From contig SHVZ01000012.1 of assembly GCA_009694025.1 (NCBI GenBank), forward strand, positions 1-49,220: 49,220 nt of DNA, given 5' to 3'. The notes under the pieces were generated by a model. That model was given only the letters and a program-made list of their open reading frames with translations. It made no database searches and was not told where the DNA came from. The position numbers and the translations under genes were made by a program. Shown piece after piece: positions 21,837 through 36,629 of this stretch. The DNA is from Alphaproteobacteria bacterium (GTDB lineage: Bacteria; Pseudomonadota; Alphaproteobacteria; SHVZ01). Positions within the stretch are counted from its first letter, which is position 1; every line of letters starts with the position of its first letter.

Positions 21837-22669
21837 CAGCCGGTTTCCCGCCGGGCCCCGAGCTTCAGCGGATCGGGATCGAGCCGCCGCCCGGCGATGG
21901 CGCCCAGCCAGTCGAGTCCGGCGGCGAGCCGAACCGCCGGGCCGACGACGACGATCGCCGGCGGCGCCATCTTCGCCGCCTCGGTCTCCTCGACCAGGCG
22001 GCCGAGGGTGGTGACGAGCGTGCGCTGGCGGTCGGTCGCGGCATGGCTCACCACCGCCGCCGGCTCGTCGGCCGGTCGGCCGGCCGATATCAGCCGGTCG
22101 CGGATCTCAGCCAGGTGCTTGAGTGCCATGTAGAACACCAGCACCGGCGCGCCCCGGGCCAGCGCCGGCCAGTCGAGGCCATCCGGCACCGCGCCGGTGA
22201 CGTTGTGGCCGGTGACGAAGGTGACGGCCTCGTTGACGTCGCGGTGGGTCGCCGGGATGCCGGCATAGGCCAGGCCGCCGATACCGGCGGTGACGCCGGG
22301 GACGACGCGGAAGGGAACCCCGGCCGCGACCAGCGCCAGGGCTTCCTCGCCGCCGCGGCCGAAGACGAAGGGATCGCCGCCCTTCAGGCGGAGCACGCGC
22401 TTGCCCTCGCGGGCGAGGCGGACCAGGCGCCGGGAGATGTTCGGCTGCCTGGGCGACGGCTTGCCGCCGCGCTTGCCGGCGAACTCGAGGACGGCGCCGG
22501 CGCGGGCGAGCGCGAGCGTCCGCTCGTCGACCAGCGCGTCGTAGACGACGGCGTCGGCCTCGGCCAGCGCCTTCAAGGCGAGCAGGGTGAGCAGGCCCGG
22601 GTCGCCGGGGCCGGCGCCGGCCAGCCAGACCCAGCCGGGCTCGAAATCGGGAAGCGCCGGAAGCTGCAT
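21836..22669 (-). CDS. cobA: Uroporphyrinogen-III C-methyltransferase
   Basis: SUMT methylates uroporphyrinogen III at C2 and C7 using SAM to give precorrin-2, the branch point from haem to cobalamin and sirohaem. The 277-residue protein has VWLAGAGPGDPGLLTLLA at the N-terminus, VVYDALVDERTL, the LRLKGGDPFVFGRGGEE motif, and VPGVTAGIGGLAYAGIPATHR, all diagnostic. The C-terminus carries an extension of about 25 residues beyond AGLDWL. It is first in a tightly coupled operon with sco and cobB. No convincing cobalamin riboswitch is visible in the 147-bp gap upstream. Confidence 0.95.
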   Translation of the reverse strand: MQLPALPDFEPGWVWLAGAGPGDPGLLTLLALKALAEADAVVYDALVDERTLALARAGAVLEFAGKRGGKPSPRQPNISRRLVRLAREGKRVLRLKGGDPFVFGRGGEEALALVAAGVPFRVVPGVTAGIGGLAYAGIPATHRDVNEAVTFVTGHNVTGAVPDGLDWPALARGAPVLVFYMALKHLAEIRDRLISAGRPADEPAAVVSHAATDRQRTLVTTLGRLVEETEAAKMAPPAIVVVGPAVRLAAGLDWLGAIAGRRLDPDPLKLGARRETG

Positions 22670-32045: not shown

Positions 32046-32687
32046 ATGCGCATCCTCGGCCTCACCGGCTCGATCGGCACGGGCAAGTCGGTGGCGGCCA
32101 GGACCTTCCGGCGGCTTCGCATCCCCGTGCACGACGCCGACGGCGTCGTCCACGCATTGCTGGCGAAGGGTGGGCGGGCGGTTCCCGTCGTCGCCCGGAT
32201 GTTCCCGGGCGTGGTCGGGGGCGGCGCCGTCGACCGGAAGAAGCTCGGAACCCGGGTCTTCGCCGACCGCGCGGAACTGAAGCGCCTGGAAGCAGTGCTG
32301 CACCCGATGGTGCGCGCCTCCGAGCGCCGCTTCCTCGCCGCCAACCGCCGCAAGCGCCTGGTCGTGCTCGACATCCCGCTCCTGTTCGAGACCGGGGCCG
32401 AGCGGCGCTGCCATGCCGTCCTGGTGGTCTCCGCCTCCAGGGCGATCCAGCGCCAGCGGGTGATGCGCCGGCGCGGGATGACCGAGGAGAAGCTCGCCCA
32501 GATTCTCTCGCACCAGATGCCCGATGCCGAGAAGCGCCGCCGCGCCGACTTCGTCGTTCCGACCGGCAACGGGTTCAGATCGACCTTGCGTCGGATCCTC
32601 GGCATCGCCAAACATCTCGCGTGCGGACCCTGGCCGAGGAAGCGACATGCGGGAAATCGTGCTCGACACGGAAACCACGGGGCTTGA
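32046..32687 (+). CDS. coaE: Dephospho-CoA kinase
   Basis: Phosphorylates dephospho-CoA at the ribose 3'-OH, the last step of CoA synthesis. The 213-residue protein has the P-loop GSIGTGKS (residues 8-15), VHDADGVVHALL, HPMVRASER and the DIPLLFETGAERRCHAVLVV core, as in CoaE. The C-terminal tail of about 20 residues (basic, RKRHAGNRARHG) is not conserved and overlaps the start of dnaQ by 41 bp. A slightly shortened C-terminus in the ancestor is likely. Confidence 0.95.
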   Translation: MRILGLTGSIGTGKSVAARTFRRLRIPVHDADGVVHALLAKGGRAVPVVARMFPGVVGGGAVDRKKLGTRVFADRAELKRLEAVLHPMVRASERRFLAANRRKRLVVLDIPLLFETGAERRCHAVLVVSASRAIQRQRVMRRRGMTEEKLAQILSHQMPDAEKRRRADFVVPTGNGFRSTLRRILGIAKHLACGPWPRKRHAGNRARHGNHGA

Positions 32688-33318
32688 TCCCGCGAGCGGC
32701 CACCGGGTGGTGGAGATCGCCTGCATCGAGCTCGAAAACCACGTGCCGACCGGGCGCCACTTCCACACCTATTGCAACCCCGAGCGCGAGATGCCGGCGG
32801 ACGCCTTCCAGATCCACGGCCTCTCGACCGAGTTCCTGGCCGGGCACCCGCCCTTCGCCGACAAGATCGAGGCGCTCCTGGCCTTCCTCGGCGAGGCCCA
32901 GCTGGTCATCCACAATGCCGAGTTCGACTTGCGATTCCTCGACTACGAGCTGACCCGCGCCGGCCGCCCGGCGCTCGGGCGCGAGCGCGGCATCGTCGAC
33001 ACGGTCACTCTCGCCCGGCGGAAGTATCCGGGCGCGCCGGCCAGCCTGGACGCGCTCTGCCGGCGCTTCGAGATCGATCTCACGGCGCGCGAGAAGCACG
33101 GCGCCATGCTCGACTGCGAGCTGCTGGCGCTGGTCTATCTGGAATTGGTCGGCGGGCGCGAGCCCGGCCTCGACCTCGCCGCCTCGGCCCGGCGCCGCCG
33201 GCGGGCCCTCGGCCAGGCCCAGGTCCGCCCGCCGCGCCCGCACGGCCCAAGCGAAGCCGAGCTCGAGGCCCACGCCGAGTTCGTGGCGAAGCTGAAGCAG
33301 CCGGTGTGGCTCGGCTAG
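32647..33318 (+). CDS. dnaQ: DNA polymerase III epsilon subunit (3'-5' proofreading exonuclease)
   Basis: The protein of 223 residues is a DEDDh exonuclease. Motif ExoI is DTETTG (Asp7, Glu9), ExoII is HNAEFDLRFLDYEL (Asp94), and ExoIII has KHGAMLDCELLA (His151, Asp156). The C-terminal PSEAELEAHAEFVAKLKQPVWL peptide is the likely segment for binding the polymerase alpha subunit. The ATG at 32647 lies inside the end of coaE. The stop TAG at 33316-33318 is directly followed by the terminal repeat of a 210-bp element, so an insertion occurred immediately behind the gene. Confidence 0.95.
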   Translation: MREIVLDTETTGLDPASGHRVVEIACIELENHVPTGRHFHTYCNPEREMPADAFQIHGLSTEFLAGHPPFADKIEALLAFLGEAQLVIHNAEFDLRFLDYELTRAGRPALGRERGIVDTVTLARRKYPGAPASLDALCRRFEIDLTAREKHGAMLDCELLALVYLELVGGREPGLDLAASARRRRRALGQAQVRPPRPHGPSEAELEAHAEFVAKLKQPVWLG

Positions 33319-33528
33319 CGGATTTCTCACAGCCACCTCGGATGAGACCACTGGTTGATACTTCTCGTCGCTGTCCAAGGGGTTGAAAGCGACGATGCGG
33401 AACGGGCCGGAGATCCCGAAATACAGACTGTTTTAGGTCCGTTGCGCGCCGACACGGCGCAACTCATTGATCCAGGATTCGAAATCAAACTTTGATCGGT
33501 CATTTACGACGGCGCTGTGAGAAATCCG
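33319..33528. mobile_element. MITE-like element with 15-bp terminal inverted repeats
   Basis: CGGATTTCTCACAGC at 33319-33333 is the exact reverse complement of GCTGTGAGAAATCCG at 33514-33528. The 180 bp between have no supportable reading frame and are more AT-rich than the surroundings. CTAG occurs directly before the left end (33315-33318) and three bases beyond the right end (33532-33535), a possible target duplication. Size and symmetry suggest a non-autonomous element mobilised by an insertion-sequence transposase, or the residue of a deleted one. The remaining 110 bp to the next gene show only a small GC hairpin. Confidence 0.7.
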
Positions 33529-33638
33529 GGTCTAGGGCAAGCGGGAGACGCATCGTCTTCGCTCCGGCGCTCCGAAGGGACGTATGGCGCGGCTCGCGCC
33601 CTTCCTGGGTCCCCACACGAGGCCGGGGAGCGCTCCGG

Positions 33639-34976
33639 CTACGCTGAGATGTCTCGCAGCCGTCCAATTTCGATGGCCATCATGTCGCGGGCTTTGGGGT
33701 TGGGCGCTCTCGACAGGAAACTCTCGAAGAGGGAAACGACTTTCAGACGATGGGCACCGTCGCGGCAAAGACCGACAGCGCGATCTACAACCACCCTGCA
33801 GCTCGGGTCCCCGCTGAATGCCAGCAACGCCGCCAGAAGCATGCAGCCTTCAGCACTGTAAGCCTGCGTCGCCCATGAGGCTTGCACCGAGTTCATCCTT
33901 ACCGACATGTCGGCCCACCCGTCAGGCGATTGCGGGGCCAGCCAATGTGCAACGACGAGCGGGTCCGCCGAAGTGCTTGGATCGAGGCCCAGCCAATCAA
34001 CTTGATCCGCCCGCCAGCTTCTTTCGGCCGACCACGCATGCCAATCGGTGCGGTCTTCTGTTGAAAATCTGGGTAGCGGCCAATCGAATCCCGAATCATA
34101 GTTGCGGATAGAGCGCGCGGAGAATGGAATCAGTGCTGTTCCGGATGGGCCTCTGTAGACGTCAAACGACGGGTCGATAGGTTCCGGATCGCCCCGGGTT
34201 CCGCAGATGATCGCCAATCCCATCTCGCCTTCGAAGGGCAGGATATAGTCTCGATCGAAGTTCTCGACGAACCGCCAGGATAGCCCCCAGCCGGCCGAAG
34301 CAAGCCGATTCAGCAGCCCATAGACTTCCGGTAACTCATACCGGCTGCCGGCAACATCGGTCACGCGATGAGATAGCCCGCGGCCTACTCGGCACGCGAG
34401 GATAAACTGCGCCGCCTTCTGCCGGGGCCTCTCCGAGAGGCAGTCGCACAACCCTGCGAGCGCGTCCTGATTCTGCCGCGCGGCGTTGACGAGCACGACT
34501 TGATCGTCGGGCATCACAGAGAACGCTTCGGCTGCGGACCCAACGGGAACGAGCCTGGCCCCTACAAATCCCGTCTCCTCGACCTCTATGGTGTGATGGA
34601 GATGCCGGAAAAGGCGAAGAACCTGTGGATCTCGGAAATAGCCAACAAATTCCGTTCGAGGCGGCGCCTGACGGGCTGATAGCTTTGCCGCCTCGAACTC
34701 CGCCCCGAGACGACAGAGCGGCTCGACAAGCGTTTTGCCTGTGCGCTCGACCAGTCGCCATGCCAGTGTGCCGAGGTAGAGCGACAGGGACTGGCGGGCC
34801 GAGTCGACTTTGGAAATGAGCCCATCGGTGATGGCATAGCGAAGAAGGCGAATGGTCGCGGCCTCCCACAGCTCAACATCTCCGTTGACGACATGGGGCC
34901 ACAATTTCACCACATGCAGCACCATGTCGGTACCGCGAATCCGGGTGAAGTCGCCGCAGGAGTGGAAGAGCTTCAT
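33639..34976 (-). CDS. Unknown 445-aa protein of accessory operon
   Basis: I do not recognise this protein. The N-terminal part (1-110) is helical (VLHVVKLWPHVVNGDVELWEAA, SLSLYLGTLAWRLVERTGKT). The middle (150-270) has an alternating strand-helix pattern (DDQVVLVNAARQNQDALAGLCDCL, then YELPEVYGLLNRLASAGWGLSWRFVENFDRDY). That pattern vaguely recalls the C-terminal half of a SAM methyltransferase fold, but without a glycine-rich loop. The C-terminal third is Trp- and Ser-rich, then helical. No signal peptide or membrane helix is seen. The ATG overlaps the stop of the methyltransferase gene upstream (ATGA), so the two are translated together. GC content is clearly below the core genes, suggesting acquisition. 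Confidence 0.65.
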   Translation of the reverse strand: MKLFHSCGDFTRIRGTDMVLHVVKLWPHVVNGDVELWEAATIRLLRYAITDGLISKVDSARQSLSLYLGTLAWRLVERTGKTLVEPLCRLGAEFEAAKLSARQAPPRTEFVGYFRDPQVLRLFRHLHHTIEVEETGFVGARLVPVGSAAEAFSVMPDDQVVLVNAARQNQDALAGLCDCLSERPRQKAAQFILACRVGRGLSHRVTDVAGSRYELPEVYGLLNRLASAGWGLSWRFVENFDRDYILPFEGEMGLAIICGTRGDPEPIDPSFDVYRGPSGTALIPFSARSIRNYDSGFDWPLPRFSTEDRTDWHAWSAERSWRADQVDWLGLDPSTSADPLVVAHWLAPQSPDGWADMSVRMNSVQASWATQAYSAEGCMLLAALLAFSGDPSCRVVVDRAVGLCRDGAHRLKVVSLFESFLSRAPNPKARDMMAIEIGRLRDISA

Positions 34977-35902
34977 GCGATGCTTCGGCGAAGCGCGTCG
35001 GCGGCGGGGAACAGCGGAAATCTCGCGACGATGTGCCTCTCGAACGCGACCTGCTCGACGCCCTTCTGATCGCCGAGGAAGTACCCGGTTCCGCCGGCGT
35101 TGTTCGCAAGGCCGAGGAACGGCCCTCGGCTGACGAGATAGTCATGGAATGGACCGTACGGGCGCCACATGTCATCCAGGTCGCTACGGCGGGGTGCGTA
35201 GTAGCGTTTGTGTGTCTGGGCGCCGCTGCGCCATATCGACAAGGGGCCGTCCGAGACCTCCAATGCCAGCAACACGGCGATGCGACAGACTCGCGCGATG
35301 CCGGCAAAACACGCCTGAGGGTCGCCGACGAAGCCGGCGACCGCGTTGCAGATGACTAGGTCGAAGCAGTTGTTTGGGAAGCGCCCCAGCTCGGCGCCAT
35401 CGTCGGCGATGGCAGTGAAGTGGGGGTCTCGCCGATGAGCGATCTGGGCGAACGAGGTGAGGCTTTCGCTCACTTCGATCCCGACGAACTCGATCTCTAT
35501 CGGTAGATTGGCTTGCGCGATGTGGTGCTTCAGGAGGTCGTAGTTTTCGCCGATGGTCGATCCGATCTCTAAGATCGTGATGCGTCGCCGCACGAGGGCC
35601 AGCCGGCGCAATACCATCGAAATGATCGTCAAGAATGTCGATTTCGATCCCGCTAGATCGAACAGCTCCGGCGGATCGGCGACGTAGCTTATGTAGTGGC
35701 GAAGGTAGTAGCTGCCCTCGGCCGTTGAGAGCGGGTACTTGTGGAAGATACGCCCGGTCTCGTCTCTAAGAACGTAGGCCCGCTCCAGCTCCAGAGCGAC
35801 GGGAGGGCTGCTTGCTTTGCGATTGCCGCCGAAGGCTTCAGCGCTTGCCCGGCGCAGATCGGTCCATTCGTCAGCGACCAGGACATAGTCTGGTGTGTGC
35901 AT
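34973..35902 (-). CDS. Class I SAM-dependent methyltransferase-like protein
   Basis: This protein of 309 residues shows a methyltransferase core: motif I ITILEIGSTIGENYDLL (Glu112, Gly114, Gly118), a strand with FVGIEVSESLTSFAQIA as the acidic ribose-binding position, and motif IV FDLVICNAVAGFV. The N-terminal 100 residues precede the core with a YYLRHYISYVADPPELFDL segment typical of sugar- or natural-product-type methyltransferases. The substrate is unknown. I prefer the ATG at 35902 (MHTPDYVLVADEW); a TTG at 36037 would add 45 residues with a hydrophobic stretch but no homologous feature. The lower GC marks it as part of the inserted pair with the 445-residue protein. The 232 bp upstream to secB hold no supportable gene and should contain the promoter. 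Confidence 0.75.
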   Translation of the reverse strand: MHTPDYVLVADEWTDLRRASAEAFGGNRKASSPPVALELERAYVLRDETGRIFHKYPLSTAEGSYYLRHYISYVADPPELFDLAGSKSTFLTIISMVLRRLALVRRRITILEIGSTIGENYDLLKHHIAQANLPIEIEFVGIEVSESLTSFAQIAHRRDPHFTAIADDGAELGRFPNNCFDLVICNAVAGFVGDPQACFAGIARVCRIAVLLALEVSDGPLSIWRSGAQTHKRYYAPRRSDLDDMWRPYGPFHDYLVSRGPFLGLANNAGGTGYFLGDQKGVEQVAFERHIVARFPLFPAADALRRSIA

Positions 35903-36134: not shown

Positions 36135-36629
36135 CTACGCCTGCACGGTCTTGCCGTTGCCGCCCGGCGGGTTGCCCTGGCCGAGGATGCGCCGGCGGTA
36201 GAATTCGTTGAAGTCGATCGGCTGCAGGAGGACCGGCGGGAAGCCGCCGTCGCGGGTGCAATTGGCGATGATCTGGCGGGCGAAGGGGAAGAGCAGACGC
36301 GGCGCCTCGGTGTAGCAGAAGGGCTTCACGATCTCCTCCGGCATCTGGCCGACGTGGAAGATCCCGGCATAGACCAGCTCGCAGAGGAACAGCGTGCGGT
36401 CCTCGTAGCGCGCCTGGGCCTTGATCGCGAGATCGACCTCGAGGATGCCGTCGGCGACCTTGATCGGAGACACGTCGATGTCGAGCTCGATCTCCGGCGC
36501 GTCCTTCATCTCGGCGAGGCCGAGCGGACCGTCCGGGCTCTCGAAGGAGAGATCCTTCACGAACTGCGCCCCGACCATGATCGGAGCGCCGCGGCCGCCG
36601 CCGCCCTGGGCCTGATTTTCGTCGCTCAT
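36135..36629 (-). CDS. secB: Protein-export chaperone SecB
   Basis: This tetrameric cytosolic chaperone keeps preproteins unfolded and hands them to SecA. The 164-residue protein has the core KDLSFESPDGPLGL, ELDIDVSPIKVADGILEVDLAIKAQAR (part) and LCELVYAGIFHVGQMPEE. The C-terminal region RLLFPFARQIIANCTRDGGFPPVLLQPIDF (part) is diagnostic. I chose the ATG at 36629 (MSDENQAQ); the longer frame starts outside conserved sequence. It follows the phosphatase gene by about 37 bp on the same strand. Confidence 0.96.
   Translation of the reverse strand: MSDENQAQGGGGRGAPIMVGAQFVKDLSFESPDGPLGLAEMKDAPEIELDIDVSPIKVADGILEVDLAIKAQARYEDRTLFLCELVYAGIFHVGQMPEEIVKPFCYTEAPRLLFPFARQIIANCTRDGGFPPVLLQPIDFNEFYRRRILGQGNPPGGNGKTVQA

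Follow-up and report, generated by a model that had tools for sequence, protein, structure and literature searches.

A horizontally acquired pair of accessory genes at an insertion-tolerant site between dnaQ and secB, the first gene product of which is predicted to modify a small molecule, lipid or glycan, is the reading that we prefer for this locus, and we give it about an even chance of being correct. The window (the whole 49,220-nt stretch of DNA that was analysed) carries the two genes on the minus strand. The first, P0001 (34973–35902), encodes a predicted class I SAM-dependent methyltransferase of 309 amino acids and the second, P0002 (33639–34976), encodes an orphan protein of 445 residues. 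The stop codon of P0001 and the start codon of P0002 share the four bases ATGA at 34973–34976, in agreement with the positions and the four-base overlap given for both open reading frames in a first-pass annotation of this DNA. From this arrangement, translation of P0002 is probably coupled to that of P0001. The overlap suggests a maintained operon and, as the sole pointer in this direction, a joint function of the two proteins.

The pair fills a 2.8 kb gap between dnaQ (DNA polymerase III epsilon; 32647–33318, plus strand) on the left and the convergent secB (36135–36629, minus strand) on the right. The two flanking genes are 74–83% and 81–87% identical, respectively, in five relatives. In the five genomes of the same genus dnaQ and secB are also adjacent, their aligned ends being ∼20–700 bp apart, and both genes of the pair are missing from the gap in each of them; the earlier observation that relatives carry no such pair at this position thus holds for all five. 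A search of 95 other relatives, all five members of the genus included, gave no P0002, and P0001 was not found in the three same-genus genomes that its class search listed. Two of the relatives carry other cargo in the gap: a chloramphenicol-phosphotransferase-like gene (PF07931, 1.2e-45) lies between dnaQ and secB in genome G001 (locus L023, contig C99), and a shortened, apparently decayed copy of such a gene is found there in genome G005 (locus L024, contig C69). The dnaQ–secB gap is therefore a variable site within the genus, and the space between these convergent genes tolerates insertions. Because both flanks keep the gene order of the relatives, it is unlikely that the pair is an assembly chimera. 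The completeness of the source genome is only 78%. The window also contains a tRNA-Ile (gat) gene at 21914–22003 (minus strand).

The base composition of the pair is atypical. The GC contents at codon positions 1, 2 and 3 are 0.63, 0.45 and 0.77 in P0001 and 0.65, 0.49 and 0.68 in P0002, so that a codon-position bias is present in both genes, and the third-position values fall below the 0.87–0.93 of the core neighbours maf, coaE, dnaQ, secB, the Tim44-like gene and mltA. The overall GC content is ∼61–62% in the region of the pair compared with mostly 63–75% across the rest of the window. The lower GC of the pair relative to the core, which had been noted previously, was thus confirmed. We infer horizontal acquisition from this composition together with the absence of the genes from the relatives; a donor or homologue was not found.

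The assignment of P0001 as a SAM methyltransferase, already proposed from the sequence, was upheld by profile searches. The best-supported domain was Methyltransf_11 (PF08241; E = 2.7e-9, 38 bits against a cut-off of 21.2), in which residues 111–207 were aligned to profile positions 1–88 of 95, and PF13649 was matched above its cut-off at 2.3e-6. The profiles Methyltransf_11, 25, 12, 23 and 31 all matched the same stretch of the protein (residues 97–221), two of them above cut-off. Motif I reads LEIGSTIGEN, the acidic end of β2 is contained in FVGIE and the post-I motif is CFDLVICNAVAGFV. When P0001 was compared using hhalign with a profile built from five methyltransferases found in this work, the probability was 98.5%. 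P0001 is accordingly classed, by predicted activity, with the class I SAM methyltransferases, in the broad Methyltransf_11 group. The 110 N-terminal and 88 C-terminal residues gave no family match in the profile searches. No close full-length relative was found; the distant matches were rejected as full-length relatives, only the SAM domain being common to them and P0001.

The better matches of P0001 in NCBIfam and the PDB included the phospholipid N-methyltransferase PmtA and small-molecule methyltransferases of the BioC and UbiE/MenG types. The scores were all far below the curated NCBIfam cut-offs for the PmtA, BioC and UbiE equivalogs (19.9 bits against 390 for PmtA and 18.2 bits against 185 for BioC), and the protein is not a member of any of the three. 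In the PDB, a phosphatidylethanolamine methyltransferase chain was matched weakly (0.0022). The substrate of P0001 is probably a small molecule, lipid or glycan; no genes nearby could name it.

The pair had also been put forward as a possible device for self/non-self marking. As a defence or counter-defence module acting by such marking or by phage-related modification, it would fit a variable insertion site with changing cargo and the orphan nature of P0002, and P0001 gave one weak match in PADLOC (mad2, 4e-4). This match is confined to 64 residues of the SAM fold, aligned to a model of 492 positions. A known anti-phage system would be recognized by a PADLOC match that covers the larger part of a component, and none was obtained. 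The motif [DNS]PP[YFW] of DNA amino-methyltransferases is missing from P0001, in which the sole DPP, within DPPE, precedes motif I; neither a nuclease nor a restriction domain was hit, and no phage or viral relatives were found. Marking of DNA is not borne out by these results, and we regard a defence role of any of these kinds as highly improbable.

Searches of Pfam, NCBIfam, PADLOC and PHROGs with P0002 gave nothing better than chance, no PDB chain was matched, and no relative was present in the plasmid, phage and viral-contig collections. When 84,980 species were scanned by motif, an approach that detects close relatives only, the result was likewise negative. The sampled class, the phylum and two further groups yielded chance matches only; part of these searches lacked a positive control, and that part carries little weight. 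The class-level matches (E values of 0.001–0.006) were rejected as chance hits: of the three frames inspected by eye, L003 looks like a CTP synthase, L004 like a periplasmic amino-acid-binding-like lipoprotein and L008 like a phosphonate-binding-type protein. A match in genome G003 was dismissed in the same way, as its frame reads like uroporphyrinogen decarboxylase. A search of the literature gave nothing specific. The description of P0002 as belonging to no recognized family stands, and assignment to a characterized family, which had been named beforehand as an outcome that would refute a new system, was not obtained.

The middle of P0002 had further been said to resemble, weakly, a methyltransferase fold that lacks a SAM loop, from which it could be a paralogue that has lost catalysis and keeps the substrate in place for P0001 in an active/degenerate heterocomplex. 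Paired active and inactive methyltransferases are known in METTL3–METTL14 and TRMT61A–TRMT6, and the present locus is like them in that two genes stand side by side and one of them encodes a methyltransferase; it differs in that P0002 has no detectable methyltransferase homology. The whole protein or its middle part was compared with the five-methyltransferase profile and with a second profile that also included P0001. The scores of 11.7–17.6 were indistinguishable from those of shuffled sequences (median 13, 95% at 17–18, maximum 20–22), while P0001 itself scored 98%. The alignment of P0001 with P0002 was not meaningful (best E value 0.42) and the middle of P0002 searched alone gave no family matches. 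The structure predicted from the single sequence does alternate between helix and strand at residues 140–195, in a block with a pLDDT of only ∼30–43, and the overlap of the two genes would also suit such a complex. Mean pLDDT values from AlphaFold2 run without an alignment were 39 for P0002 and 34.5 for P0001, and neither model was good enough for use in a fold comparison; the low value is uninformative for P0002, because that of a true methyltransferase was also low. A remote fold similarity of P0002 to methyltransferases is possible, the protein having been compared without an alignment of relatives. The heterocomplex itself is considered to be very unlikely. Of the original proposal of an accessory pair, the lower GC, the probable coupling and the absence from the site in relatives were retained and the degenerate-methyltransferase partner was not.

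A footprint of a mobile element adjoins the pair on the dnaQ side. A segment of ∼210 bp at 33315–33534 (no strand assigned), directly 3′ of the dnaQ stop, has the features of an insertion-sequence remnant or MITE-like element: it has inverted ends, CGGATTTCTCACAGC (33319–33333) and GCTGTGAGAAATCCG (33514–33528), with CTAG on both outer sides, and the dnaQ stop codon lies inside the left CTAG. The same end, GGATTTCTCAC, occurs beside CTAG elsewhere in this genome (contig C8 at 22075, C75 at 34190 and C88 at 127), the recurring motif being CTAG-CCCGGATTTCTCAC. All three copies lie no more than ∼150 bases from the end of a contig, a position expected of a multi-copy element that breaks short-read assembly. 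Since a perfect 15-base inverted pair was contained in 22 of 300 shuffles of the 2.9 kb region, the inverted pair by itself is weak evidence; the segment is called a remnant because its terminal inverted repeats are common to the other genomic copies and because of the CTAG flanks. IS1380 was considered, and searches for the family of the element gave no assignment. Two partial DDE_Tnp_1_4 transposase matches are present in the genome (contigs C76 and C74), and the stretches examined around both lack the remnant ends. As the secB side gave no counterpart of these ends, the pair is not established as one transposon.

This footprint bears on the main rival to acquisition as a functional pair, in which two unrelated or decaying genes were stranded by mobile-element activity and P0002, evolving fast or degenerating, is an ORFan that shares no function with P0001. 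Besides the adjoining remnant, the weakening of the codon-position signal in the C-terminal half of P0002 (the last 200 residues) is consistent with decay, as are its lack of conservation in any of the genomes sampled and the apparently decayed chloramphenicol-phosphotransferase-like gene at the same site in G005. Neither frame is interrupted, however, and the longest stop-free frame in the region (500 codons) exceeds that in every one of 500 first-order Markov simulations (median 211, maximum 401); the ATGA overlap, too, speaks for genes that are kept together. Stranding is regarded as a real but distinctly smaller possibility, and the readings as paired methyltransferases and as a defence module have little support beside it.

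In the preferred reading, that of a horizontally acquired accessory pair, a small cassette would have entered the dnaQ–secB intergenic space. P0001 would methylate a small molecule, lipid or glycan. P0002 would be produced together with it through translational coupling and would act in the same step, perhaps as a substrate-handling protein or a companion enzyme. That P0002 founds a new protein family as the obligate methyltransferase partner in a mobile two-gene modification system appears unlikely, and the tests run gave no evidence for a new kind of system. If true, the partnership would bring a protein family not seen before into methyltransferase biology. The case also illustrates how orphan accessory genes gather in insertion-tolerant spaces that separate convergent core genes, here with the footprint of a mobile element still visible.
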